Origin: an uncultured beta proteobacterium
GTDB lineage: Bacteria > Pseudomonadota > Gammaproteobacteria > Burkholderiales > Burkholderiaceae_C
Assembly: GCA_903920695.1 (NCBI GenBank)
Contig: CAIXNB010000070.1
Coordinates: 1-38,635, forward strand
Reading direction: 5' to 3'
DNA: 38,635 bases
Part shown: in pieces, positions 8,931 through 32,191 of the stretch
Layout of the letters: each line of letters begins with the position of its first letter
How positions within the stretch are numbered: the stretch's first letter is position 1
Made by a program: the position numbers and the translations under genes
Notes under the pieces: model-generated
What the model was told of the DNA's origin: nothing
Database searches by the model: none
What the model saw: the letters and a program-made list of their open reading frames with translations, nothing else

Positions 8931-9649
8931 GGTGTGACTCCGGCGTGTGCGGCGGCGTTCGCGTTGGAGCGCGCCGTCTCGTTCCTGACAAAGTGAATCG
9001 GTTGAACCTGGCCCGGCTTGGCCTGGCCCTTGATCGAGCAGCCGTCGAACACGACCGGCTCTTCCCAGCTGGCGTCGATGGTCTCGTCGGGCACGACCTT
9101 GACCGCGTGCGCCTTCTCACCGCTGAGTTCGAGCAGCGCGCCCAGCACGCTGGCGTGGGCGCTGCTGCGCTGTTGCAGAGCATTGAAGATGGCGTTGAAG
9201 ATGTGCGCCATCTCGCTGAGGAAGGCGCGCGCCTCGCGCGGCGGCTGGGTCGAGACGAACTCCAGCACCACCGGCAGGTAGTCCGGCAGCTCGCCCGGCG
9301 CCAGGTAGAGACCGGCTTTCTCATAGGTCTGCGTCAGGTCGATCATGGCCGGGCCGCGATCGCGTGAGTCGCCGTGCACGTGCTCGAACAAATGCAGCGA
9401 GGTCGCATGGCCGCGGTCGAACAGCTCGACGTAAGTGCTTTCCGTTTCCAGCGGATTGCCACGTTTGAGCGCGCCAATCAGCGCATCCAACTCGCCTCGG
9501 CGGTTGACGGATAACGTTGCTTCGGCGTGCAGGACCTGCTGCATTTCATCAAGATGCGCGCGCAATTGCGCATCCGGATACGACAGCAGCCGCGCAAACA
9601 CCTTGAGAGTTTGCGATGCGGGTATGGGGTTGTTTTCAAACAGCTTCAT
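8927..9649 (-). CDS. narJ: Nitrate reductase molybdenum cofactor assembly chaperone
   Basis: 240 residues, the usual NarJ size. It is a cytoplasmic TorD/DmsD-type chaperone that binds apo-NarG and allows cofactor insertion and membrane attachment; it is not part of the final enzyme. Recognisable stretches: FARLLSYPDAQLRAH near the N terminus, ESTYVELFDRGHATSLHLFEHVHGDSRDRG in two parts (about 70-100), and PGELPDYLPVVLEF (about 120). The frame is open further upstream into narH, but family length and the fit of MKLFENN fix the ATG at 9649. Unusually for nar operons it is separated from narH by 140 bp that hold a palindromic repeat, and the start has only a weak Shine-Dalgarno. Confidence 0.95.
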   Translation of the reverse strand: MKLFENNPIPASQTLKVFARLLSYPDAQLRAHLDEMQQVLHAEATLSVNRRGELDALIGALKRGNPLETESTYVELFDRGHATSLHLFEHVHGDSRDRGPAMIDLTQTYEKAGLYLAPGELPDYLPVVLEFVSTQPPREARAFLSEMAHIFNAIFNALQQRSSAHASVLGALLELSGEKAHAVKVVPDETIDASWEEPVVFDGCSIKGQAKPGQVQPIHFVRNETARSNANAAAHAGVTP

Positions 9650-20983: not shown

Positions 20984-22171
20984 TCAGGCCTGGCGCTCGA
21001 AGATCGCGGCGATGCCCTGGCCGCCGCCGATGCACATGGTCACCAGGGCATAGCGGCCACCGATGCGTTCCAGTTCGTACAGCGCCTTGACCGTGATCAG
21101 GGCGCCGGTGGCGCCGATCGGATGACCCAGTGAAATGCCCGAACCGTTCGGGTTGACCTTGGCCGGGTCCAGCCCGAGGTCCTTGGCAACCGCGCAGGCC
21201 TGTGCGGCGAAGGCCTCGTTGGCCTCGATCACGTCGAGGTCCTTGACGGTCAGTCCGGCCTTCTTAAGCGCGAGCTGCGAGGCCGGCACCGGGCCGATGC
21301 CCATGTACTTGGGGTCGACGCCGGCATGGGCATAGGCTACCAGGCGTGCCAGGGGTTTGAGGCCGCGCGCCTTGGCGGTGGCTGCCTCCATCAGCACGAC
21401 GGCTGCGGCGGCGTCGTTGATGCCGGAGGCATTGCCGGCGGTCACCGTGCCGTTTTCCTTCAGGAAGGCGGGCTTGAGCTTGGCCAGTTCGGCCAGCGAG
21501 CAGTTGGGGCGGAAATGCTCGTCGGTGGCGTAGGCGATATCGCCCTTCTTGCTCTTGAGGATGACGGGCATGATCTGCGACTTGAAGTAGCCGGCCTCGG
21601 TCGCGCGCTGAGCGCGGTTGTGGCTTTCGACGGCCAGCGCATCCTGCTGCTCGCGCGTGATGCCCCACTTGGCCGCGATGTTCTCGGCCGTTACGCCCAT
21701 GTGGATGTTCTGGAACGGATCGTGCAGCGCGCCAATCATCATGTCGACCATCTTGGTGTCGCCCATGCGTGCGCCCCAGCGCATGTTCAGGCTGGCAAAG
21801 GGTACGCGGCTCATGACTTCCGCACCGCCGCCAATGGCAATGTCGGCATCGCCGAGCAGGATGGACTGGCTGGCCGAGACGATGGCCTGCAGGCCCGAGC
21901 CGCACAGGCGGTTCACGTTGAAGGCAGGCGTGCCTTCGGCGCAGCCACCGTTGATGGCCGCCACGCGCGACAGGTACATGTCTTTCGGCTCGGTATTGAC
22001 AACGTGCCCGAACACGACATGGCCGACGTCGGCGCCGGCCACCTGGGCGCGTGCGAGCGATTCGCGCACGACCTGCGCAGCCAGCTCGGTCGGGGCGATG
22101 TCCTTCAGGCTACCGCCAAAGGTTCCAATGGCGGTGCGCACGGCACTGACGACAACTACATCACGGCTCAT
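20984..22171 (-). CDS. Acetyl-CoA C-acetyltransferase / beta-ketothiolase
   Basis: 395 residues; ATG at 22171 with AGGAG 6 bases upstream. A cytosolic thiolase that condenses two acetyl-CoA, or cleaves 3-ketoacyl-CoA. The nucleophile is C90 in NVNRLCGSGLQAIV. The GHPIGATGA motif with the catalytic His is near 350, and CIGGGQGIA with the second catalytic Cys is near 380. Length and motifs match biosynthetic thiolases such as PhaA/BktB/AtoB; which substrate length is preferred cannot be read. No phaB or phaC lies next to it. It is upstream of and co-directional with narX, an odd neighbour for a metabolic enzyme. Confidence 0.93.
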   Translation of the reverse strand: MSRDVVVVSAVRTAIGTFGGSLKDIAPTELAAQVVRESLARAQVAGADVGHVVFGHVVNTEPKDMYLSRVAAINGGCAEGTPAFNVNRLCGSGLQAIVSASQSILLGDADIAIGGGAEVMSRVPFASLNMRWGARMGDTKMVDMMIGALHDPFQNIHMGVTAENIAAKWGITREQQDALAVESHNRAQRATEAGYFKSQIMPVILKSKKGDIAYATDEHFRPNCSLAELAKLKPAFLKENGTVTAGNASGINDAAAAVVLMEAATAKARGLKPLARLVAYAHAGVDPKYMGIGPVPASQLALKKAGLTVKDLDVIEANEAFAAQACAVAKDLGLDPAKVNPNGSGISLGHPIGATGALITVKALYELERIGGRYALVTMCIGGGQGIAAIFERQA

Positions 22172-22303
22172 AGCAAACTCCTGAATTGAGAAAGGTTGGG
22201 AATATTTTTTCACACGCTGGGCTGGCGCTGCGTCACCCCGCATTTTGCGCCAGCGCGATAGCGCCGCTAGCGGACCGTCCTGATGCAGGGCTCGCCAGCC
22301 TTG

Positions 22304-23422
22304 TCAGGCCTGGGCGGTGTGGGCGCAGGCTACGCTGTTTCGGCCTTTGTCTTTGGCCAGGTACAGGCCCTCATCGGCGGCCTTGATCAAAGCCTCGAAA
22401 TGCTGCATCTCGGGTCCCTTTTCAGCGACGCCGACGCTGATGCTGCCCGACCATTCCCCACCGCTGACCGGAACGCGCAGCTTGGCAACGCCCTGGCGCA
22501 TCGTTTCTGCCACTCGCAGCGCGCCATCGAGTGCCGTGCCTGGGCAGATGATCAGGAATTCGTCGCCACCCAGCCGGCACACGATGTCGTTGCGGCGCAC
22601 GCAGCCGCGCAGGTGGGCGGCCAGGGCGCGTAACACCTCGTCGCCTGCCGCGTGGCCATGTTGATCATTGATCTGCTTGAAATAATCGGCGTCGATCATC
22701 ATGCAGGCCAGCGGCGAGGCGTCACGTTCCGATTGCGCCCAGGCCTGCCCGAGCCAGGCCATCGCTTGGCGGCGGTTGGGCAAGCCGGTCAGTACGTCGG
22801 TCAGGGCAAGCCGCTCGAGAAACTCATTCGTTTTCGATAGCGCGCGTGTCCGTTCGGCCACCTTCACCTCAAGCGTGCGGTTGAGTTCCTGCAGCTCACG
22901 GTTGCGCTGGGAAACTTGCTGGAACAGGCCGTTGAGCGCGTTGAGTAGCGGGCCGGTCGCGCCTTCCTGTTGCGTCGCTTCGGCGGCCAGCGCGTCCTGC
23001 GGTGCCTTGCCGGCTTTGATGGCAGTGATCTGTTTGGCCATCGACTGATCGATGCCCAGGATGTGGTAAGTCAGCCAGGAGGTCAGGAATTTCAGCAGTG
23101 CCTCGGACGTCTCCTTGCGCTCATTGGAGCGCCCGTGCAGCGCGGTCACGTCCTGTACGAAATCCGTGTGTGATTGCGTGTGCTGCTGGATGTGGCGTGG
23201 ATCTAGTCCGGCCTGCAGCATCAGTTTTTCTTCCTCCTTGAAGTGGTGTATCGCGTAGGTGGCCAGTTCGTTGAACAAGCTGTTGACGTCGGCCTGGGAT
23301 GCGCCCTCGGGCTGAATCAGCAGGTCGCCAAGCCGGTTGATCAGATCGACCAGGCCGCGGTGCTGCCGGTCGACGGTCGCAAGCCCGGTTTCAAAATACT
23401 TGTTCCAGTGGAACGACTCCAT
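22304..23422 (-). CDS. Hemerythrin-GGDEF diguanylate cyclase
   Basis: 372 residues. Residues 1-130 form a bacteriohemerythrin domain with all seven di-iron ligands: H21, H60, E64, H81, H85, H120 and D125. A helical linker (about 160-200) leads to a GGDEF domain (about 205-368) with intact GGDEF at 284-288 and an inhibitory RxxD site (R275-D278) five residues before it. It should make c-di-GMP from two GTP, with activity tuned by oxygen or redox state at the di-iron site, as shown for the Vibrio Bhr-DGC family. No membrane segment or signal peptide, so it is cytoplasmic. It lies next to nitrate respiration genes. In the 132 bp to the thiolase, arms 22221-22228 and 22247-22254 form a perfect 8-bp hairpin of unknown use. 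Confidence 0.93.
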   Translation of the reverse strand: MESFHWNKYFETGLATVDRQHRGLVDLINRLGDLLIQPEGASQADVNSLFNELATYAIHHFKEEEKLMLQAGLDPRHIQQHTQSHTDFVQDVTALHGRSNERKETSEALLKFLTSWLTYHILGIDQSMAKQITAIKAGKAPQDALAAEATQQEGATGPLLNALNGLFQQVSQRNRELQELNRTLEVKVAERTRALSKTNEFLERLALTDVLTGLPNRRQAMAWLGQAWAQSERDASPLACMMIDADYFKQINDQHGHAAGDEVLRALAAHLRGCVRRNDIVCRLGGDEFLIICPGTALDGALRVAETMRQGVAKLRVPVSGGEWSGSISVGVAEKGPEMQHFEALIKAADEGLYLAKDKGRNSVACAHTAQA

Positions 23423-23527: not shown

Positions 23528-25015
23528 ATGGACAATGTCGATTCACTGCCGCGTGACGCCCAGAGCATCCTGGAGCTGGCCGCTCGCTCGATGTTTGAAC
23601 TGTTTGCCAGTGCCAGCGAAGGCATGCTGCTGGTTGACCGGCAGGCGCGGGTGGTCTGGATCAACGAACAGTACAAGCGATTTCTGCCAGCGCTGGGCTT
23701 TGAGCGGGTCGAGGACTTTGTCGGGCACCCGGTGGCCAGCGTCGTGCAGAACACGCAGATGCACCATGTGCTTGAGAGCGGCAAGCCGATCCTGATTGAC
23801 CTGCTGACGAATCGCGCCGGCACCTTTGTCGTCAGCCGCATTCCTTTGCGCGACAGTGCTGGCGAGGTGATCGGTGCGCTCGGCATCGTGCTGTTTGATC
23901 ATGCCGAGACCAGCTTGCAGCCGCTGGTAGGCAAATTTGCACTGTTGCAGCGCGATCTCGACGATGCCCGGCGTGAACTCGCCAGTCAGCGCGTCAGCCA
24001 GCAAAAGGGCGAGCGCAACGGCCAGCGCCAGTCGCGTTACACCTTCGCCAGTTTTGTCGGCACCAGTCCGGCTGCCGTCGAAGTCAAACGCCAGGCGCGC
24101 CGTGCCGCGCAGACCGCCAGTACGGTGCTGCTGCTGGGTGAGACCGGCACCGGCAAGGAATTGCTGGCGCATGCGATCCACGCCGCTTCGGCGCGCGCCG
24201 CCAAGCCCTTCATCAGCCTGAACATCGCGGCCGTGCCAGACACGCTGCTGGAGGCCGAATTCTTCGGCGTCGCGCCCGGTGCCTACACCGGTGCCGACCG
24301 CAAGGGGCGCGAAGGGAAGTTCCGTCTGGCCCATGGTGGCACTTTGTTTCTCGATGAAATCGGTGACATGCCGCTGGCCCTGCAAGCCAAACTGCTGCGC
24401 GCGTTGCAGGAGGGTGAGATCGAGCCGCTCGGTTCGAACAAACTGCTGTCTTTCGATGCGCGCGTGATTGCGGCAACCTCGCGCGATCTGGCTGCACTGG
24501 TGCGCCAGGGCGAGTTCCGCGAAGACTTGTTCTACCGCCTCAATGTGCTGCCGATCCGGGTGCCGCCGCTGCGCGAGCGGCGTACCGACATCGCCGCCCT
24601 GGTCGAAGTGCTCGGCGAAGACATGGCACTGCGCAACGGTGCCCAGCCACCCGAGCTCAGCACCGAGGCGCTGGAACTGCTGACGGCGCAGGTCTGGCGC
24701 GGCAACATCCGCGAGTTGCGCAACGTGCTCGAACAGGCCACCATGCGCAGCGATTCGCATCGCATCGAGGCCGCGCAACTGGCAGCGGTGCTGCGCGAGT
24801 CCGGCGTTGAGCTACCGCCAGCGCTGGCAGCGAGTCCGGCCCCGGAGAAGGCTGCGCCTGCAGCACTGCCACTGGCGCAGCAGCGTGCGGCACTGGAGCG
24901 TGATGCCATCAGTGCCGCCATGGCGCAGGTCCGCGGCAACAAGGCGGCTGCGGCGCGGCTGCTTGGAATTTCCCGCGCCACGCTGTATGGACGGCTTGGG
25001 AATACTGTTCAGTAA
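23528..25015 (+). CDS. Sigma-54 enhancer-binding transcriptional regulator with PAS sensor
   Basis: 495 residues. An N-terminal PAS-like domain (about 20-130: SEGMLLVDRQARVVWINEQY) probably senses a small molecule. The AAA+ domain (about 173-405) has Walker A GETGTGKE (204-211), the sigma-54 contact loop GAYTGA (251-256, a usual variant of GAFTGA), Walker B GTLFLDEIGD (271-280), and arginine-finger segment REDLFYRLNVLPIRVPPLRER (in two parts, near 325-345). A Fis-type helix-turn-helix (about 460-492: AAAARLLGISRATLYGRL) ends the protein. It activates sigma-54 promoters from a distance. Its stop codon lies inside a 13-bp perfect dyad, and a -24/-12 promoter follows about 100 bp later in front of the ABC operon, so it is very likely the dedicated activator of that operon. 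Confidence 0.93.
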   Translation: MDNVDSLPRDAQSILELAARSMFELFASASEGMLLVDRQARVVWINEQYKRFLPALGFERVEDFVGHPVASVVQNTQMHHVLESGKPILIDLLTNRAGTFVVSRIPLRDSAGEVIGALGIVLFDHAETSLQPLVGKFALLQRDLDDARRELASQRVSQQKGERNGQRQSRYTFASFVGTSPAAVEVKRQARRAAQTASTVLLLGETGTGKELLAHAIHAASARAAKPFISLNIAAVPDTLLEAEFFGVAPGAYTGADRKGREGKFRLAHGGTLFLDEIGDMPLALQAKLLRALQEGEIEPLGSNKLLSFDARVIAATSRDLAALVRQGEFREDLFYRLNVLPIRVPPLRERRTDIAALVEVLGEDMALRNGAQPPELSTEALELLTAQVWRGNIRELRNVLEQATMRSDSHRIEAAQLAAVLRESGVELPPALAASPAPEKAAPAALPLAQQRAALERDAISAAMAQVRGNKAAAARLLGISRATLYGRLGNTVQ

Positions 25016-25041
25016 TCAGGCGTTGTGTCTGATTACTGAAC
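25007..25041. promoter_or_regulatory. 13-bp perfect dyad, candidate enhancer site for the sigma-54 regulator
   Basis: Arms GTTCAGTAATCAG (25007-25019) and CTGATTACTGAAC (25029-25041) with a 9-bp spacer; the regulator stop TAA (25013-25015) is in the left arm. Each arm region also has the short palindrome ACTG-TT-CAGT or its relative. The distance to the predicted start near 25143 puts it at about -136 to -102, the usual place for an upstream activator site. It lacks a T run on either side, so a terminator is less likely. Confidence 0.7.
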
Positions 25042-25098
25042 GTATTGAAATGCCTGAAATATGGACACTTTGCCTGGCGTGGAAATTTTTCCAAATAA

Positions 25099-25111
25099 AA
25101 TCAATGGCTTG
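25099..25111 (+). promoter_or_regulatory. IHF-like binding site
   Basis: AATCAA-TGGC-TTG matches the IHF consensus WATCAA-N4-TTR at every defined position. It lies between the 13-bp dyad and the sigma-54 promoter, where DNA bending commonly brings the enhancer-bound activator to the polymerase. The match is short, so location is what gives it weight. Confidence 0.5.
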
Positions 25112-25115
25112 CAAA

Positions 25116-25132
25116 TTGGCATATTTGGTGCA
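25116..25132 (+). promoter_or_regulatory. Sigma-54 (-24/-12) promoter of the ABC transporter operon
   Basis: TTGGCATATTTGGTGCA fits YTGGCACG-N4-TTGCW in 10 of 13 defined positions, with the essential GG and GC at correct spacing. Predicted start near 25143, leaving a leader of about 28 bases before the ATG at 25171. The leader holds a GGAG at 25161-25164. Confidence 0.75.
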
Positions 25133-25170
25133 TAGTCAACTCTGATCAATCAACCCATCTGGAGACATAT

Positions 25171-26373
25171 ATGGATCGTCGTACTTGGGTCACGTGCACC
25201 GCACTGACCACCGCCGCGCTGGCTTGTGCGCTGGCTTCGCCGCTGGCTTTGGCGCAGTCCAAGGAAATCAGGATCGCCCATATCTACAGCAAGACCGGCC
25301 CGCTCGAAGCCTATGGCAAGCAGACCGCGACCGGCTTCATGATGGGTCTCGATTACGCGACCGGTGGCACCATGATGGTGGCCGGCAAGAAACTGGTGGT
25401 GATCGAGAAGGACGATCAAGGCAAGCCCGATTTGGGCAAGTCATTGCTGGCAACCGCCTATTCCGACGACAAGGCTGATCTGGCGGTCGGTCCGACCGCT
25501 TCCGGTGTGGCGCTGGCCATGCTGCCAGTGGCCGAGGAGTACAAGAAGATCCTGCTGGTCGAGCCGGCAGTGGCCGATTCCATCACCGGCGAAAAGTGGA
25601 ACAAGTACATCTTCCGCACCGGTCGCAACAGCTCGCAGGACGCCATCTCCAACGCGGTTGCCGTGGACAAGGCTGGCGTGACGCTGGCCACGCTGGCGCA
25701 GGACAATGCCTTCGGCCGTGACGGTGTCAAGGCGTTCAAGGATGCCATCAAGAAAGCCAAGCTGGTGCATGAGGAATACCTGCCGGCAGCCACTACCGAC
25801 TTCACGGCGGGGGCGCAGCGCCTGATCGACAAACTGAAAGACCAACCGGGACGCAAGATCATCTGGATCGTCTGGGCCGGTGCTGGCAACCCGTTCAAGA
25901 TCGTCGATCTGGACCTGAAGCGCTACGGCATCGAGATCGCGACCGGCGGCAACATCCTGCCGGCGATGGCGGCCTACAAGAACCTGCCCGGCATGGAAGG
26001 CGCGGCTTACTACTACTTCGGTATCCCGAAGAACGCGGTCAATGAAGCTATGGTGGCGCGTCATTACAGCCAGTTCAAGACACCGCCGGACTTCTTCACG
26101 GCAGGTGGTTTCTCGGCAGCCATGGCGGTCGTGACGGCGCTGACCAACAGCAAGGGCGATGCCACGGCCAACACCCTGATCAAGACCATGGAAGGCATGA
26201 GCTTCGAGACGCCCAAAGGCAAGATGACCTTCCGCAAGGAAGATCATCAGGCGATGCAGAGCATGTACCACTTCAAGATCAAGGTTGATCCTGCTTTTGC
26301 CTGGGGCGTGCCGGAACTGGTGCGCGAGATCAAGGCCGAAGAGATGCAGATTCCGATTAGAAACAAGCGTTAA
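25171..26373 (+). CDS. LIV-family ABC transporter substrate-binding protein
   Basis: 400 residues with a Sec signal peptide (about 1-28: basic start, hydrophobic core, ALA cleavage before QS). The mature protein is a periplasmic type I binding protein (Peripla_BP_6): IRIAHIYSKTGPLEAYGKQ at the start, VGPTASGVALAMLPVAEEY in the first lobe, FGRDGVKAFKDA in the hinge region. It captures a ligand for the permease encoded downstream. Relatives bind branched-chain amino acids, amides, urea or aromatic acids; the residues seen do not decide which. It is the first gene after the sigma-54 promoter. A 145-bp structured repeat ending in a T run separates it from the ATPase gene, which would favour more binding protein than membrane parts. 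Confidence 0.92.
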   Translation: MDRRTWVTCTALTTAALACALASPLALAQSKEIRIAHIYSKTGPLEAYGKQTATGFMMGLDYATGGTMMVAGKKLVVIEKDDQGKPDLGKSLLATAYSDDKADLAVGPTASGVALAMLPVAEEYKKILLVEPAVADSITGEKWNKYIFRTGRNSSQDAISNAVAVDKAGVTLATLAQDNAFGRDGVKAFKDAIKKAKLVHEEYLPAATTDFTAGAQRLIDKLKDQPGRKIIWIVWAGAGNPFKIVDLDLKRYGIEIATGGNILPAMAAYKNLPGMEGAAYYYFGIPKNAVNEAMVARHYSQFKTPPDFFTAGGFSAAMAVVTALTNSKGDATANTLIKTMEGMSFETPKGKMTFRKEDHQAMQSMYHFKIKVDPAFAWGVPELVREIKAEEMQIPIRNKR

Positions 26374-26516
26374 AAAGGGCGTGCTCGGCTACTGCGCAGT
26401 CGCCATGCGGCGTTGCGCGGTGCTCGCAATCCTCAAGTACGGGTGTACGTTCCGGTTGCTGCGCTCCGTGCGCCTTGCCTGACGACTGCTCGCTACGCCG
26501 CTCCCACCCTTTTTTT
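26372..26516. repeat. Large structured intergenic repeat, possible attenuator
   Basis: Left arm 26372-26402 and right arm 26483-26516 are imperfect inverted repeats: the outer 8 bases (AAAAAGGG against CCCTTTTT) and inner 7 (GCAGTCG against CGACTGC) pair exactly. The right arm ends in CCCACCC followed by seven T. The middle (26403-26482) has further partly complementary GC-rich segments around GTACGGGTGTAC. It starts in the stop codon of the binding-protein gene. It resembles multi-copy intergenic repeats of related genomes (recollection, not checked). It may partly terminate transcription. Confidence 0.65.
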
Positions 26517-26548
26517 GTTGGCTGGTTCGATCACAGGCGAACTCAAAA

Positions 26549-27379
26549 ATGCTTGAAACCAAAGAACTCACGGTTCGCTTCGGCGGCCACGTGGCGGTCA
26601 ACGCTGTCAGTTGTGCGTTCCAGCCCGGTACGCTGACGGCCATCGTCGGGCCCAACGGCGCTGGCAAGACCACTTATTTCAATCTGATCTCCGGGCAGCT
26701 CAAGGCGACGTCGGGCGAGGTCTTCTTGAACGGCAACAGCCTGGCCGGCAAGAGTCCGTCGGCGCGTACGCGCGCCGGTCTCGGTCGCGCTTTTCAGCTC
26801 ACCAATCTGTTTCCCAACCTCACGGTGCTGGAGAACGTGCGCCTGGCCGTGCAGGCAGCGCGCGCGGGCGCCCATTTGCGCGGCCTGAACCTGTGGTCTG
26901 TCTGGAGCGACCACAGGGCGCTGACGCAACTGGCCGAGGAAGTGCTCGACGCCGTCGCCATGAACGATCAGCAGGACACGACCGTGGCCAGCCTGCCGCA
27001 CGGCGACCAGCGCAAGCTGGAGGTCGCGCTGCTGATGGCGCTGGAGCCCGATGTCTTCATGTTCGACGAACCCACCGCTGGCATGAGCCACGACGAAGCG
27101 CCGGTCATCCTGAACCTGATTCGCAAACTCAAGGACGACAAGCGCAAAACCATTTTGCTGGTAGAGCACAAGATGGACGTGGTGCGCGAACTGGCCGACC
27201 GCATCATCGTGCTGCACAACGGCAAACTGGTGGCCGATGGCGAACCGGCGCAGGTCATCGCCTCGCCGGTGGTGCAGGAGGCTTACCTTGGGGTTGCCCC
27301 CAAGGACGCCTTGGCGCAAGATGGGACGCCCCCCTATCCCGGCCTTTCCCCTCGACGGGAAAGGCGCGAGAAATCATGA
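26549..27379 (+). CDS. livG: LivG-type ABC transporter ATPase
   Basis: 276 residues, about 20 more than usual. Walker A GPNGAGKTT (about 34-42), Q-loop in GRAFQLTNLFPNLTVLENV, the LivG-specific insert after it, a signature written as LPHGDQRKLE instead of the standard LSGGQ (common in LivG proteins), Walker B VFMFDEPTAGM, and switch His in LLVEHKMD. It powers uptake with the LivF-type partner. The family end is near EAYLG; the remaining residues (about 249-276) are encoded by DNA with two perfect hairpins (27286-27305 and 27342-27365) and look like an added, repeat-derived tail. The stop overlaps the next start (ATGA). Symbol by family; substrate not known. Confidence 0.9.
   Translation: MLETKELTVRFGGHVAVNAVSCAFQPGTLTAIVGPNGAGKTTYFNLISGQLKATSGEVFLNGNSLAGKSPSARTRAGLGRAFQLTNLFPNLTVLENVRLAVQAARAGAHLRGLNLWSVWSDHRALTQLAEEVLDAVAMNDQQDTTVASLPHGDQRKLEVALLMALEPDVFMFDEPTAGMSHDEAPVILNLIRKLKDDKRKTILLVEHKMDVVRELADRIIVLHNGKLVADGEPAQVIASPVVQEAYLGVAPKDALAQDGTPPYPGLSPRRERREKS
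27286..27365. repeat. Two perfect hairpins inside the livG 3' end
   Basis: CCTTGGGG-TTGC-CCCCAAGG at 27286-27305 (8-bp stem, 4-base loop) and arms GCCTTTCCC (27342-27350) and GGGAAAGGC (27357-27365) with a 6-base loop. Both are within coding sequence and just before the livF start at 27376. The second resembles the CCTTTCCC-type palindromes often found between genes in Burkholderiales. Confidence 0.7.
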
Positions 27380-28101
27380 ACGAAGTTTTGCTTAAGCTCG
27401 AAGGCGTGCACACGCACATTGGCGCCTACCATATCCTGCATGGCGTTGACCTTGTAGTGCCGCGCGGACAACTGACGATGCTGCTCGGCCGTAACGGCGC
27501 CGGCAAGACCACCACGCTGCGCACCATCATGGGTCTGTGGCACGCGAGCCAGGGCCGGGTGACATTCGGTCAGCGCGACATCACACAGCTCACAACGCCG
27601 GATATTGCCGGCCTGAACATCGCCTACGTGCCGGAGAACATGGGTATCTTTTCTGACCTCACGGTCAAGGAAAACATGCTGCTGGCGGCACGCCAGGCCA
27701 AACGCGCGGCGCAGATGGACGCCAGCCGCTTGCAGTGGATCTTTTCGCTGTTCCCGGCGGTCGAGAAATTCTGGGACCATCCGGCCGGCAAGCTTTCGGG
27801 CGGGCAAAAGCAGATGCTGGCGGTGGCGCGCGCCATCGTCGAGCCGCGTGAACTGCTGATCGTCGACGAGCCCAGCAAGGGTCTGGCCCCGGCCATCATC
27901 AACAACATGATCGACGCCTTCGCCCAACTCAAGGCCACCGGCTCCACCATCCTGCTGGTGGAGCAGAACATCAACTGTGCCAAGCGCCTGGGCGATCACG
28001 TGGCGGTCATGGACAACGGCCGCGTTGTCCACGCCGGCGCCATGCAGGCGCTGGCCGAGGACGAAGCACTGCAGCGTTCGCTGCTGGGGTTGGCGATATG
28101 A
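27376..28101 (+). CDS. livF: LivF-type ABC transporter ATPase
   Basis: 241 residues. The start ATG at 27376 overlaps the livG stop (ATGA). It lies in a frame that stays open far upstream through livG, but the N terminus NEVLLKLEGVHTHIGAYHILHGV fixes the start. Walker A GRNGAGKTT, Q-loop/YVPENMGIFSDLTVKEN, canonical signature LSGGQKQML, Walker B LLIVDEPSKGLAP and switch His replaced by Gln in the LLVEQNIN motif, which is normal for LivF. Its stop overlaps the permease start (ATGA at 28098). It forms the ATPase pair with LivG on the cytoplasmic side. Confidence 0.92.
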   Translation: MNEVLLKLEGVHTHIGAYHILHGVDLVVPRGQLTMLLGRNGAGKTTTLRTIMGLWHASQGRVTFGQRDITQLTTPDIAGLNIAYVPENMGIFSDLTVKENMLLAARQAKRAAQMDASRLQWIFSLFPAVEKFWDHPAGKLSGGQKQMLAVARAIVEPRELLIVDEPSKGLAPAIINNMIDAFAQLKATGSTILLVEQNINCAKRLGDHVAVMDNGRVVHAGAMQALAEDEALQRSLLGLAI

Positions 28102-29081
28102 AAAATCTTGACTTCGACTGGAAGCCACTGACTTTGGTGCCAATCCTGGCGCTACTGGTTGCACCCTTCATCGGCTCGGCCTCGACCTGGCTCACGCTCA
28201 CGGTCGCGGGACTGGCCATGGGCATGATCATCTTTGTCATCGCCTCCGGCCTGACCTTGGTGTTCGGTTTGATGGACGTGCTCAATTTTGGTCATGGCGT
28301 TTTCATTGCGCTCGGCGCCTTCGTCGCCACCACGGTGCTGGGCATGATGGGTAACTGGACCGGCTCACCCGATCTGTGGCGCAACCTGGTGGCGGTGTTT
28401 CCGGCCATGCTGGTCGCGATGGCCGTGGCCGGCGCGCTCGGTCTGGCCTTCGAGCGCTTCATCGTGCGCCCGGTCTACGGTCAGCACTTGAAGCAGATCC
28501 TGATCACCATGGGCGGCATGATCATCGGCGAAGAACTGATCAAGGTGATCTGGGGCCCGCAGCAGATCCCTCTGCCGCTGCCCGAAGGCCTGCGCGGCGC
28601 CGTGCTGTTCGGTGACGCTGCCATCGAGCGCTATCGCCTGCTGGCGGTTGTGGTTGGCCTCTTGGTTTTCGCGCTGCTGGCCTGGACCCTGAGCCGCACC
28701 AAGATCGGACTGCTGATCCGCGCCGGTGTGCAGGACCGCGAGATGGTTGAGTCGCTCGGCTACCGCATTCGGCGCCTGTTTGTCGGCGTCTTTGTCGTCG
28801 GCAGCGCGCTGGCCGGTCTGGGCGGCGTCATGTGGGGCCTGTACCAGCAGAACGTAACGCCGCAGATGGGCGCACAGGTCAACGTGCTGATCTTCATCGT
28901 CATCATCATCGGCGGTCTGGGTTCGACCGGTGGCGCGCTGATTGGTGCCCTGTTGGTCGGTCTGATGGCGAACTACACCGGCTTTCTGCTGCCCAAGGTG
29001 GCGCTGTTCTCGAACATTGCGCTGATGGTGGCGATCCTGCTGTGGCGACCGCAGGGTGTCTACCCGGTGGCGAATCGTTAG
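28098..29081 (+). CDS. livH: LivH-type ABC transporter permease
   Basis: 327 residues with about eight to nine hydrophobic segments. The family landmarks are present: GLTLVFGLMDVLNFGHGVFIALGAF near the N terminus (in E. coli LivH, G-L-N-x2-HG), and the EAA-like loop around GVQDREMVESLGYRIRRLFVGVF that contacts the ATPase. The C-terminal half ends LGSTGGALIGALLVGLMANYTGF. It forms the membrane channel with the LivM-type partner. Overlaps livF by 4 bp; 9 bp to the next gene. It has a short N-terminal extension with one extra hydrophobic stretch (about 13-30). Confidence 0.92.
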   Translation: MKNLDFDWKPLTLVPILALLVAPFIGSASTWLTLTVAGLAMGMIIFVIASGLTLVFGLMDVLNFGHGVFIALGAFVATTVLGMMGNWTGSPDLWRNLVAVFPAMLVAMAVAGALGLAFERFIVRPVYGQHLKQILITMGGMIIGEELIKVIWGPQQIPLPLPEGLRGAVLFGDAAIERYRLLAVVVGLLVFALLAWTLSRTKIGLLIRAGVQDREMVESLGYRIRRLFVGVFVVGSALAGLGGVMWGLYQQNVTPQMGAQVNVLIFIVIIIGGLGSTGGALIGALLVGLMANYTGFLLPKVALFSNIALMVAILLWRPQGVYPVANR

Positions 29082-29090
29082 GACTGAACC

Positions 29091-30164
29091 ATGCTCAACC
29101 GTATCCTTTCCCACGACCACCCGCGCAGCCGCGTGCTCGCGTTCATGCTGATCGTGCTGCTGATTGCACTGGCTGGCGCACCGTTCATTTTTCCGGGTGT
29201 CAAGGCGCTCAATGTCGCGGCCAAGGTGTTGGTCTTCATCGTGCTGGTCGCCAGTTTCGATTTGCTGCTTGGCTACACCGGCATCGTCAGCTTTGCCCAC
29301 ACCATGTTCTTTGGCATCGGCGCCTACGGCATCGCGGTGGCGATGACGCGCCTGGGTCCAACGTGGGAGGCGCTGGGCCTGGGTTTGCTGGCTTCGTTGG
29401 GTCTCTCGTTTGTGCTGGCCTTGCTGGTCGGTCTGTTCTCGCTGCGCGTGCGTGCCATCTTCTTTGCCATGATCACGCTGGCGGTGGCCTCGGCCTTCCT
29501 GACGCTGGCCTCGCAGTTGTCCGACATCACCGGCGGGGAAGACGGCCTGACCTTCAAAGTGCCGGAACTGCTATCGCCCAGCCTTGAGTTCGCAGATCAG
29601 CCCTTTCTCGGCGTCACGCTCGACGGCCGCTTGCTGTGCTACTACCTGCTGTTCGTGACCGCATTGTTGCTGCTGCTGGCGCTGCTGCGCATCGTGAACT
29701 CGCCGTTCGGGCGCGTGTTGCAGGCGATCCGAGAGAACGAATTTAGGGCCGAGGCGATTGGCTACCGCGTCGTCGTCTACCGCACCACGTCGAGCATCCT
29801 GTCGGCGCTTTTTGCCTGCCTGGCCGGCACCATGCTGGCGATCTGGTTGCGCTACAGCGGACCCGACACCTCGCTCTCGTTTGAGGTCATGATGGACGTG
29901 CTGCTGATCGTCGTGATCGGCGGCATGGGCACGATCTACGGCTCGGCCATCGGCGCCGCGCTGTTCCTGGTGGCGCAGAGCTATCTGCAGGATCTGCTGC
30001 GCCTGGGCAGCGAGGCAGCCGCCGGTTGGCCCTGGCTGTCGGCCCTGTTGTCGCCGGATCGCTGGCTGCTCTGGCTCGGCGTCTTGTTTGTGCTGTCGGT
30101 GTATTACTTCCCGACCGGCGTCGTGGGTCGTTTGCGAGCCAATGCTGCTGGAGGCCGGCTATGA
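29091..30164 (+). CDS. livM: LivM-type ABC transporter permease
   Basis: 357 residues, about nine to ten hydrophobic segments. LLGYTGIVSFAHTMFFGIGAYGIA is the LivM equivalent of the LSLGHAAFFGIGAY motif. The cytoplasmic coupling loop is IRENEFRAEAIGYRV. The later GGMGTIYGSAIGAALF segment is typical. A loop after TDITGGEDGL-type residues (SDITGGEDGLTFKVP) is conserved in the family. Second half of the channel. Its TGA overlaps the ATG of the hydrolase gene (ATGA at 30161), so the hydrolase is translated from the same message. Confidence 0.92.
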   Translation: MLNRILSHDHPRSRVLAFMLIVLLIALAGAPFIFPGVKALNVAAKVLVFIVLVASFDLLLGYTGIVSFAHTMFFGIGAYGIAVAMTRLGPTWEALGLGLLASLGLSFVLALLVGLFSLRVRAIFFAMITLAVASAFLTLASQLSDITGGEDGLTFKVPELLSPSLEFADQPFLGVTLDGRLLCYYLLFVTALLLLLALLRIVNSPFGRVLQAIRENEFRAEAIGYRVVVYRTTSSILSALFACLAGTMLAIWLRYSGPDTSLSFEVMMDVLLIVVIGGMGTIYGSAIGAALFLVAQSYLQDLLRLGSEAAAGWPWLSALLSPDRWLLWLGVLFVLSVYYFPTGVVGRLRANAAGGRL

Positions 30165-31036
30165 ATGCAGCACCGGTTTCGCGTTACCTGACCTGCGCCG
30201 GGCGCGAGATCCACCTCACCGAGTGGGGCGCCGAGCATAGCAACACCGTCGTCGCCTGGCACGGCCTGGCGCGCACCGGGCGTGACATGGATGAACTCGC
30301 CGAACATTTGTGCGAGCGTGGTTATCGCGTGATCTGTCCCGATACGCCGGGCCGTGGCCTGAGCCAGTGGAGTCCGCTGCCAGCCCAGGAATACTGCCTG
30401 GCGTTTTACGCGCGCCTGGCGCAGGAATTGTTCGATCAGCTCGGAATCGAGCGTGCGCACTGGGTTGGCACTTCGATGGGCGGCGCCATCGGCACGGTCT
30501 GCGCGGCCGGTCTGCTGCTGCCGGGCATGGCCCGGCGCATCCAGAGCCTCACGCTCAACGACAATGCGCCGGAGTTGGCGCAGTCGGCGATTGCGCGCAT
30601 CCGCGCCTACGCCGGCAGTCCGCCGGCGTTCGACACGATGCTCGAACTCGAAGCCTTTTTCCGCCAGGTCTACAAGCCCTACGGTTGGCTGAGCGCCGCG
30701 CAATGGCGGCGTTTGACCGAGACCTCGACACGGCGCCTGCCTGACGGACGCGTCACGCCGCACTACGACCCGGCGATGGTGCAGCAGTTCATCAGCCACC
30801 CCAATGATTACCTGATCTGGGACCACTACGACGCGATCAGGATCCCCGTGCTCTGTCTGCATGGCGTCGAATCGGATCTGGTCCTGCCTGAAACCATTCG
30901 TGCCATGCAGGCTCGCGGCCCGGGTGCGCGCGGCTTGCTGCAGGTACTCGAAGTGGCGGGATGCGGACATGCGCCCGCGCTCAACGTGGCGGATCAGCTT
31001 GATCCGATCGCAGCGTTCATCGCTGCCGCTGACTGA
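30161..31036 (+). CDS. Alpha/beta-fold hydrolase tied to the ABC transporter
   Basis: 291 residues, cytoplasmic (no signal). Alpha/beta hydrolase fold with oxyanion HG segment VAWHGLARTGRDM (about 31-43), nucleophile S105 in GTSMGG, acid D239 in VESDLV and H270 in CGHAP, a complete triad. A cap region lies at about 135-225. Family members cleave esters, lactones, amides, thioesters or C-C bonds. The specific reaction is not readable. Because it is the last gene of the sigma-54-controlled transporter operon, with a 4-bp overlap, its substrate is probably the imported compound or a product of it (inference). Converges on ferrochelatase, with 60 bp between stops. Confidence 0.85.
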   Translation: MNAAPVSRYLTCAGREIHLTEWGAEHSNTVVAWHGLARTGRDMDELAEHLCERGYRVICPDTPGRGLSQWSPLPAQEYCLAFYARLAQELFDQLGIERAHWVGTSMGGAIGTVCAAGLLLPGMARRIQSLTLNDNAPELAQSAIARIRAYAGSPPAFDTMLELEAFFRQVYKPYGWLSAAQWRRLTETSTRRLPDGRVTPHYDPAMVQQFISHPNDYLIWDHYDAIRIPVLCLHGVESDLVLPETIRAMQARGPGARGLLQVLEVAGCGHAPALNVADQLDPIAAFIAAAD

Positions 31037-31096
31037 ATATCGAATACCTGGATCGCCATGTCGCTGACAGTCACGAGGTGGCCATGGGCCTGTGCT

Positions 31097-32191
31097 CTAT
31101 TGTTTGGCGCCCAGTGCCAATGCCGCGGCGCGTGAGGCTGCCAGCGTTTGCGGATCAGGCGCGTTCTGGGTCGGCCAGCCGGCCAGGTGCGTTTGCGTGA
31201 GTTCGCACAGCGCGCCGATCCACGCCGGGTCATCGTTGAGGCAGGGGATGTAATGGAATTGCTGACCGCCGGCCTGCAAGAATGCGGCGCGCCCTTCCAT
31301 ATTGATTTCTTCGAGCGTCTCAAGGCAGTCGCTGGTGAAGCCGGGACAAATTACATCGACGCGTTTGACGCCGGACTTTGCGAGCGCGATCAGGCTTGGT
31401 TCGGTATAGGGTTGCAGCCATTTGGCGCGACCCAGGCGCGACTGGAACGTGACCTTGTATTGGTCTGGCAGCAGCCCCAGCTGCGCGCCTAGCAGGCGCG
31501 CGGTCTTGAAGCATTCGCAGTGGTAGGGGTCACCCAGGTGAAGGCTGCGCTCGGGTATGCCATGAAAACTCATCACCAGTTGTTCCGGCCGACCGTTGGC
31601 CTTCCAGTAGGTCTCAATGCTCGCGGCGAGCGAGGCGATGTAGCCGGCGTCGTCGTGGTAGCGGTTGACAAAGCGCAGCTCGGGCAGGTTGCGAACCGTG
31701 GCGGCCCAGGCATAGACGGCGTCGAACAGGCTGGCCGTGGTGGTGGCGGAATACTGCGGATAGGCCGGCAGCACCAGCACACGCGTCACACCTTCGGCCT
31801 TGAGCGCGTCGAGCTGTTCGGCAATCGAAGTACTGCCGTAGCGCATGGCGTAACGCACGCGCACATCATGCCCGCGCTGCGCCATCCAGCCTTGCAGCAT
31901 GAGGGCCTGCTTCTCGGTCCATATCTTCAGGGGAGAGCCCTCGGGGGTCCAGATGCTGGCGTACTTGGCGGCCGACTTGGCGGGCCGAAACGGCAGGATC
32001 ACGCCGTGCAGGATCAGCCACCACAGCAGTCGCGGAATTTCGACCACGCGCGGGTCACTGAGAAACTCTTTCAGGTAACGGCGCACGTCCGTGGTCGTGG
32101 GCGAGTCGGGTGTGCCGAGGTTGCAGAACAGCACGGCGTTGCGCGCACTCTGGCCGTGCTGGAAAGGAGGTTCTGGTTTGAATGCGGTCAT
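31097..32191 (-). CDS. hemH: Ferrochelatase
   Basis: 364 residues. Inserts ferrous iron into protoporphyrin IX, the last step of protoheme synthesis. The N-terminal LFCNLGTPDSP segment, the metal-binding His in VMSFHGIPERS and the catalytic Glu in DCLETLEEINMEG identify the family, along with QSRLGRAKWLQPYT. Length is normal for proteobacteria. Several Cys near CECFKTA and VICPGFTSDC exist, but I do not see the C-terminal four-Cys iron-sulfur motif with confidence. The start ATG at 32191 has GGAGG close upstream (AAAGGAGGTTCTGGTTTGA is inside the gene, so the upstream signal is weak). No heme neighbours in the window. Confidence 0.95.
   Translation of the reverse strand: MTAFKPEPPFQHGQSARNAVLFCNLGTPDSPTTTDVRRYLKEFLSDPRVVEIPRLLWWLILHGVILPFRPAKSAAKYASIWTPEGSPLKIWTEKQALMLQGWMAQRGHDVRVRYAMRYGSTSIAEQLDALKAEGVTRVLVLPAYPQYSATTTASLFDAVYAWAATVRNLPELRFVNRYHDDAGYIASLAASIETYWKANGRPEQLVMSFHGIPERSLHLGDPYHCECFKTARLLGAQLGLLPDQYKVTFQSRLGRAKWLQPYTEPSLIALAKSGVKRVDVICPGFTSDCLETLEEINMEGRAAFLQAGGQQFHYIPCLNDDPAWIGALCELTQTHLAGWPTQNAPDPQTLAASRAAALALGAKQ

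Follow-up and report, generated by a model that had tools for sequence, protein, structure and literature searches.

A predicted sigma-54-switched importer and hydrolase operon, probably for soluble poly(3-hydroxybutyrate) breakdown products, in an uncultured beta-proteobacterium

According to the accessible parts of two reports, the catabolism of (R)-3-hydroxybutyrate (3HB) in Pseudomonas is under the PAS activator HbcR (PA2005), which responds to (R)-3HB and works with RpoN (PMC10482368, PMC8694187). The DNA analysed here, a 38,635-bp stretch from an uncultured beta proteobacterium (contig CAIXNB010000070.1 of assembly GCA_903920695.1; hereafter the window), carries a gene for a PAS-type sigma-54 activator followed by six genes, for the binding protein, two ATPases and two permeases of an ATP-binding cassette (ABC) importer and for an alpha/beta hydrolase. 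We consider it probable that this unit serves the sigma-54-switched uptake and first hydrolysis of soluble breakdown products of poly(3-hydroxybutyrate) (PHB), a substrate class suggested by the PHB depolymerase and 3HB-oligomer hydrolase genes inside the operons of relatives. The window is one contig (C70, our numbering) of a 4.88-Mb assembly in 231 contigs that is 99.4% complete.

By function, no described regulator is known to stand closer to the window regulator than HbcR: the window regulator is also a PAS-type sigma-54 activator, and its relatives precede genes for an acetoacetyl-coenzyme A (CoA) reductase and a GntP permease, or lie near a 3HB dehydrogenase gene. The target of HbcR, going by the gene order PA2003-PA2005, is bdhA, whereas that of the window regulator would be the ABC importer with its hydrolase. 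With LivJFGHM and UrtABCDE the importer shares a Type I periplasmic binding protein and pairs of ATPases and permeases; it differs from them in having its own sigma-54 activator and hydrolase, a putative hydroxy-acid ligand, and scores far below the LivG, LivF and Urt cut-offs. The binding protein is 69% identical (E 5.6e-171) to RPA4397 of Rhodopseudomonas palustris, the structure of which has been solved (PDB 3n0x); PDB 3nnd is also from R. palustris. The reaction proposed for the hydrolase is that of PhaY-type enzymes (EC 3.1.1.22), and it is in this reaction that the likeness to them lies; PhaY1 and PhaY2 of Ralstonia eutropha are tabulated as 3HB-oligomer hydrolases in the accessible part of the source (PMC3430594). 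The secreted 3HB-oligomer hydrolase family (PF10605), an operon neighbour in relatives, does not include the window hydrolase, which Pfam assigns to general alpha/beta hydrolase families only. A 2021 review, in its accessible part, states that the bacterial transporter for 3-hydroxybutyrate uptake is not known and that HbuT of Bacillus subtilis is only presumed to be one (PMC8000602). No ABC importer for 3HB oligomers was met in the titles and abstract beginnings of the literature searched, which is weak evidence of novelty as subscription papers lay mostly outside the coverage. The components are of known kinds, and their combination as a PHB-product uptake system was not met in that literature.

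Layout and conservation of the unit

The genes of the unit are arranged as follows (LIV, leucine/isoleucine/valine).

23528..25015, + strand: sigma-54 activator (PAS-AAA+-Fis), 495 amino acids; Pfam PF08448 (PAS_4), PF00158 (Sigma54_activat), PF25601 (AAA lid) and PF02954 (HTH_8/Fis)
25171..26373, + strand: LIV-type periplasmic binding protein, 400 amino acids, with an N-terminal signal-like segment (by eye); PF13458 (Peripla_BP_6)
26549..27379, + strand: ABC ATPase, LivG-like; PF00005 and PF12399, UrtD and LivG models below cut-off
27376..28101, + strand: ABC ATPase, LivF-like; PF00005, UrtE and LivF models below cut-off
28098..29081, + strand: permease, LivH-like; PF02653 (BPD_transp_2)
29091..30164, + strand: permease, LivM-like; PF02653 (BPD_transp_2)
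30161..31036, + strand: alpha/beta hydrolase, 291 amino acids; PF00561, 4-bp overlap with the permease gene

All gene parts named in a preliminary description of this DNA, from the regulator to the hydrolase overlapping the permease gene, were located as described there. Its six genes in tight order stand as to order and overlap; the tightness is not uniform, since a gap of 175 bp with a dispersed repeat separates the binding-protein gene from the first ATPase gene. The repeat (26376-26520) has two further copies in the same genome (84% and 79% identity, on contigs C163 and C50), and the gap that holds it is the place of a PHB depolymerase gene in some relatives. No terminator was found after the hydrolase gene, the fold of 31030-31100 being no better than shuffles (z 0.23).

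The AAA+ domain of the regulator (PF00158 at 223 bits) contains GETGTGKE, FLDE and intact Walker motifs, and its sigma-54 contact loop at residues 251-256 reads GAYTGA, the Y variant of the GAFTGA type (motifs and loop by eye); the PDB relatives are NifA, ZraR and FleQ. By AAA+ domain, Walker motifs and GAFTGA-type loop the regulator is a predicted sigma-54 enhancer-binding protein, and by a Peripla_BP_6 protein, two ATPases and two BPD_transp_2 permeases in one operon the transporter is a predicted LIV-type ABC importer. The ATPases do not reach the NCBIfam cut-offs for LivJFGHM or Urt systems proper (UrtD 208 vs 304, LivG 196 vs 362, UrtE 206 vs 286, LivF 195 vs 441). For the hydrolase, a triad of Ser105, Asp239 and His270 is proposed, residues among those conserved in at least 98.5% of 81 sequences; the predicted model has a mean predicted local distance difference test score (pLDDT) of 86.8 with 4ose and 3bwx as closest folds, and no signal peptide was seen by eye.

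Conservation was followed in two samples. A scan of species-representative genomes for similarity to the window hydrolase retained the best 80 of 272 relatives (loci L009-L088), and counts over these thus describe hydrolase-containing loci; the nearest hydrolase relatives are in assemblies of uncultured beta-proteobacteria, Burkholderiales and Rhodoferax. Of these best 80 loci, 52 have the regulator as well as the binding protein, and 66 have all six genes from binding protein to hydrolase, some of the others being cut by contig ends. The neighbour-conservation check on regulator and transporter, set beforehand in the preliminary description as a point on which its proposal could fail, found the regulator directly upstream in 50 of the 52. 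Across 198 relatives, with the binding protein counted at E<=1e-60 and a hydrolase orthologue at >=60% identity, 45 genomes have the binding protein, 47 the orthologue and 43 both among the matches listed, where very short partial copies may have been missed (Fisher p 2.4e-36). The binding protein comes without an orthologue among the matches listed in two genomes (G065, G173), and the orthologue without a binding protein in four (G018, G084, G106, G176). The idea of a self-contained unit of sigma-54 switch, importer and dedicated hydrolase is borne out by this conservation.

Next after the hydrolase gene lies a ferrochelatase gene (31097-32191, - strand), which also follows within 1.5 kb in 23 of the 64 loci whose sequence extends far enough, so that the operon often occupies the same chromosomal place. 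Upstream of the regulator gene, on the - strand, are genes for a hemerythrin-GGDEF protein (22304-23422) and a BktB beta-ketothiolase (20984-22243; 758 bits, cut-off 725), the latter possibly linked to the operon.

Promoter and operator array

Between the regulator and binding-protein genes, and reaching into the 3' end of the former, the following elements were found (IHF, integration host factor; UAS, upstream activating sequence; centres counted from the -24 element).

25117..25132, + strand: sigma-54 type -24/-12 promoter, TGGCATATTTGGTGCA; pattern match, kept in 66/66 regions
25099..25111, + strand: IHF-like site; pattern match
25050..25068, + strand: operator (UAS) site 1, 16.4 bits, centre -58; best leave-out matrix match in the whole window
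25025..25043, + strand: operator (UAS) site 2, 7.8 bits, centre -83; second-best leave-out matrix match in the whole window
25005..25023, + strand: operator (UAS) site 3, weak, 5.5 bits, centre -103; third-best leave-out matrix match
25007..25041, no strand: perfect 13+13 bp inverted repeat (25007-25019/25029-25041), spanning operator sites 3 and 2

Taken alone, the window gives two matches to the -24/-12 pattern where 0.90 are expected and one to the IHF pattern where 0.25 is expected, neither of which is significant. We accept both elements because they are conserved across 66 regions, which is decisive. From 117 loci, those with regulator and binding-protein genes adjacent within 700 bp were kept and exact duplicates were dropped, leaving 66 distinct intergenic regions (49 from contigs, 16 from further genomes and the window's own) that may still include near-identical species. 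A -24/-12 score of at least 10 out of 12 is reached in 66/66 regions, compared with 118 of 3300 shuffles and 182 of 4967 real 250-bp control windows, a score that presupposes GG and GC (4 of the 12 points) equally in data and controls. TGGCA starts the element in 65/66 regions, TGC stands at -12 in all 66, and a strict IHF match 16-20 bp upstream of TGGCA occurs in 34/66 regions versus 9 of 6600 shuffled 40-bp segments.

A motif search of the same regions returned one palindrome, TTGTCTGAnnnTCAGACAA, with a log-likelihood of 646 versus at most 35 on one shuffled set; the motif first arose from random starts and was then refined from a palindromic seed written by hand from it. Over the 66 promoters, sites above 7 bits have their centres grouped around -58, -82 and -102 from TGGCA, at a rate of 0.0105 per position versus 0.0001 in shuffles. 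Of these promoters, 44 have three copies, 20 have two, one has four and one has none, which makes at least two copies in 65/66 regulator-importer intergenic regions. The matrix used on the window was trained on 63 promoters, with the window and its two closest relatives (L001, L009, L010) excluded, and its three best matches in the 38.6 kb are the three sites listed above; site 3 is barely higher than the fourth-best match, 5.3 bits at 31029. This enhancer-like layout of predicted binding sites is the strongest evidence for a real switch, and with it the putative target of the regulator carries a -24/-12 promoter with upstream operator sites, as would be expected of a sigma-54 enhancer-binding protein.

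The preliminary description had listed a dyad, an IHF-like site and a -24/-12 promoter. All three are present, and promoter and IHF-like site are conserved; the dyad did not survive as a single palindrome, being part of the three-site operator array. As a conserved element in its own right it was rejected, since its sequence was found in one of the 66 regions, the window itself, and the conserved part is the operator motif within it.

That the operon might encode a common amino-acid importer, expressed constitutively and next to a regulator unrelated to it, is hardly credible in the face of a -24/-12 element in all 66 regions and operator sites in 65, and of LIV and urea models that score far below their cut-offs, even though Pfam and NCBIfam do assign the ABC genes to the LIV/Urt group. 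A search of 24950-26600 gave no sigma-70-like site, which says little because just 0.5 is expected by chance.

PHB enzymes in relatives and the likely substrate

The preliminary description had called the substrate not readable; relatives' operons holding PHB depolymerase and 3HB-oligomer hydrolase now make it partly readable. Since these two enzymes are encoded there, the compound taken up would be a 3HB product, most likely (R)-3HB oligomers such as the dimer and possibly also the monomer, the preference for oligomer over monomer being the weaker part of this assignment.

In 12 of 66 loci a PHB depolymerase gene is inserted between the binding-protein gene and the ATPase genes; in 17 of 79 a 3HB-oligomer hydrolase gene separates the permease and hydrolase genes. 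One example of each inserted enzyme family was tested against the family libraries, and the remaining copies were assigned by tblastn to the example (identity 48-100% for oligomer hydrolase, 53-100% for depolymerase, 76-100% for carboxylesterase and 67-100% for the second binding protein). The depolymerase example belongs to catalytic type 2 and has an Fn3 domain (NCBIfam NF050059, 412.6 bits, cut-off 280; PDB PHB depolymerase 2d80, E 1.8e-68), and the oligomer-hydrolase example matches PF10605 with E 2.7e-282. The gap between permease and hydrolase genes has an insert of at least 800 bp in 34/79 loci, and each of the 34 inserts holds an oligomer hydrolase (17), a carboxylesterase (5) and/or a second binding protein (21). 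A loose lipobox pattern fits 17/17 oligomer hydrolases and 5/5 carboxylesterases, and also 5/12 depolymerases and 4/23 second binding proteins. With no length limit, a second, different LIV-type binding-protein gene is found between livM and the hydrolase gene in 22/79 loci (e.g. L038, L040 and L045), which could possibly let one importer accept more ligands. At least one of the two PHB enzymes is encoded inside 21 of 66 complete operons.

Mapping on the hydrolase tree shows at least 12 changes of the oligomer-hydrolase label, seven of them forced by well-supported branches, while shuffled labels average 15.6; the label is somewhat clustered yet has been repeatedly gained or lost, and with at least 12 changes the link between operon and oligomer hydrolase is recurrent. 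A PF10605 scan made independently of the operon was positive in 26 of the 198 relatives. Eight of the 198 have both this enzyme and the binding protein (G001, G015, G059, G075, G091, G098, G101 and G115), and in 8/8 the PF10605 gene sits in the gap that separates permease and hydrolase genes; the binding-protein gene of G059 is on another contig, and the PF10605 gene of G015 and G115 is present as fragments. These fragments (L152 in G015, L150/L155 in G115) look like oligomer-hydrolase loss in progress. The PF10605 enzyme of G106, a genome without a binding-protein match, adjoins the hydrolase orthologue, with no importer-gene match in 16 kb. In L197, a locus of a different family within the order, the PF10605 gene is found on the far side of the permease gene and of one for a CoA ligase. 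The NF050059 depolymerase is above cut-off in 15/198 relatives, six of which also have the binding protein, and it is adjacent to the binding-protein gene in four of the six (G091, G098, G108 and G115).

We regard it as rather improbable that some other ester or acid is imported, such as oligomers of lactate or other hydroxyacids or aromatic or fatty acid esters, with the PHB enzymes of relatives as passengers. Such cargo would suit the near folds of the binding protein, which include p-hydroxybenzoate or 4-hydroxybenzoate structures (4ey3, 26%, and 4evs, 21% identity), as well as the aromatic, fatty or dicarboxylic acids bound by many R. palustris LIV-type proteins, as given in the accessible part of a ligand screen (PMC3223731), and the carboxylesterase that replaces the oligomer hydrolase in 5/79 loci. 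It fits poorly with the recurrence over the tree of two distinct PHB enzymes, each in a gap of its own, with the 8/8 placement of PF10605, and with the links of the hydrolase paralogue and the regulator relatives to 3HB enzymes that are described below. RPA4397 is not named in the literature searched, nor in the main text of that screen.

The sole other relative of the window hydrolase in its own genome at E<=1e-25 (38% identity) is encoded divergently to a 3HB dehydrogenase gene (TIGR01963, 343.9 bits, cut-off 307). Twenty extra regions were examined, 18 for this paralogue and two for other checks, and the pair is kept in 4/4 other fetched regions of the window's family. The regulator has matches at E<=1e-100 in 8 of 369 class-wide genomes, among them the window's own genome and another from its family, and six regions were fetched from seven matches outside the family. 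In L191 the relative (55% identity to the regulator) is upstream of genes for an acetoacetyl-CoA reductase (TIGR01829, 386.9 bits, cut-off 302) and a GntP permease. That of L194 (50%) comes after genes of a tripartite ATP-independent periplasmic (TRAP) transporter and 1.9 kb from a 3HB dehydrogenase gene (TIGR01963, 352.5, cut-off 307), with another gene between. In L192, from another family, the relative (51%) precedes the TRAP genes DctP, DctQ and DctM and a CoA transferase gene, and the same operator motif occurs three times, with a -24/-12 element, before the TRAP genes (8974-9166), which suggests that this regulator family switches different carrier types.

Import of monomeric (R)-3HB or short hydroxy acids only, with the hydrolase acting on something else, e.g. 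oligomers from the cell's own PHB granules, is unlikely in our judgement, if far from negligible. GntP or TRAP carrier genes next to the regulator relatives would fit monomeric acids, and two loci of another class of the phylum (L198 and L200) keep the regulator, binding protein and ABC genes, with TGGCGC-N5-TTGC-like elements in the intergenic sequence (by eye only), and have no hydrolase match. Against this, the hydrolase is tied to the importer in the window's family (43 of 45 binding-protein genomes among the matches listed) and its gene overlaps the permease gene; the distant loci L202 and L206 also have hydrolase relatives (52% and 49%) downstream of the permease gene; and a separate hydrolase paralogue is already present next to the 3HB dehydrogenase.

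Several observations weigh against the assignment of PHB products. Neither PHB enzyme is encoded in 45 of the 66 complete operons or in that of the window, and the depolymerase is not adjacent to the binding protein in two of six genomes (G075, G109). At genome level the importer does not co-occur significantly with the oligomer hydrolase (8/45 importer genomes vs 18/153 others, p 0.32) or with the depolymerase (6/45 vs 9/153, p 0.11), and the link between importer and PHB enzymes is one of position, not of presence in the genome. The window's own genome has no PF10605 match by the method that was positive in 26 relatives, and no NF050059 match, type-1 PHB depolymerases having been checked through PF10503 only. 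A weak Esterase_PHB match in it (C83) was rejected, as it scores higher with Peptidase_S9 and PF00756 and is likelier another esterase. The paralogue pair is found in 0/14 regions outside the window's family, and three regulator relatives show other surroundings: TRAP genes only in L195 (50%), LIV-type ATPase genes of 36-38% identity in L193, and no link seen in L196. A search of the own genome for the operator with at most two mismatches gave 35 forward matches versus 27 for a control pattern, so barely above the control that no regulon is readable there, and the operator is not matched in the 3HB dehydrogenase region of that genome. The same genome also encodes a second importer (L189, C107:15000-33000; genes 51-66% identical, binding protein 54%), which has no match to the window regulator or hydrolase. 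It is flanked by acyl-CoA ligase and enoyl-CoA hydratase genes, from which we infer that the importer family probably also serves other acids.

A possible route for PHB products and its meaning

Under the proposed uptake of PHB products, the PAS domain would sense 3HB or a related signal in the cell, and the regulator would bind the array of TTGTCTGAnnnTCAGACAA sites observed upstream of the importer genes. IHF would bend the DNA, and the sigma-54 polymerase would be activated at the observed -24/-12 element. The binding protein, the two ATPases and the two permeases, of recognisable families, may then import the compound, and the hydrolase, presumably a cytosolic serine hydrolase, would cleave imported oligomers to monomer. 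Conversion of the monomer to acetoacetate by 3HB dehydrogenase is an established pathway, and that enzyme, by family score, has its gene elsewhere in the genome. Several relatives also encode, within the same operon, enzymes that would make the oligomers outside the cytoplasm, and the organism of the window, its genome being without PF10605 or NF050059 matches, would live on PHB products released by others.

More tentatively, with the chances in our estimate slightly short of even, the operon could be a modular cassette, a dedicated ABC importer for 3HB oligomers with its own sigma-54 activator. Complete degraders would combine depolymerase, oligomer hydrolase and importer in one operon, and lineages like that of the window would have shed the secreted enzymes while retaining uptake, intracellular hydrolysis and switch, scavenging PHB degraded by neighbours.

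If the proposed function is right, a recognisable operon with a defined promoter and operator would make the question of the 3HB transporter testable, and the solved structure of RPA4397 would gain a ligand hypothesis. The extracellular breakdown of a bioplastic would then be linked to its intracellular use, in scavengers as well.

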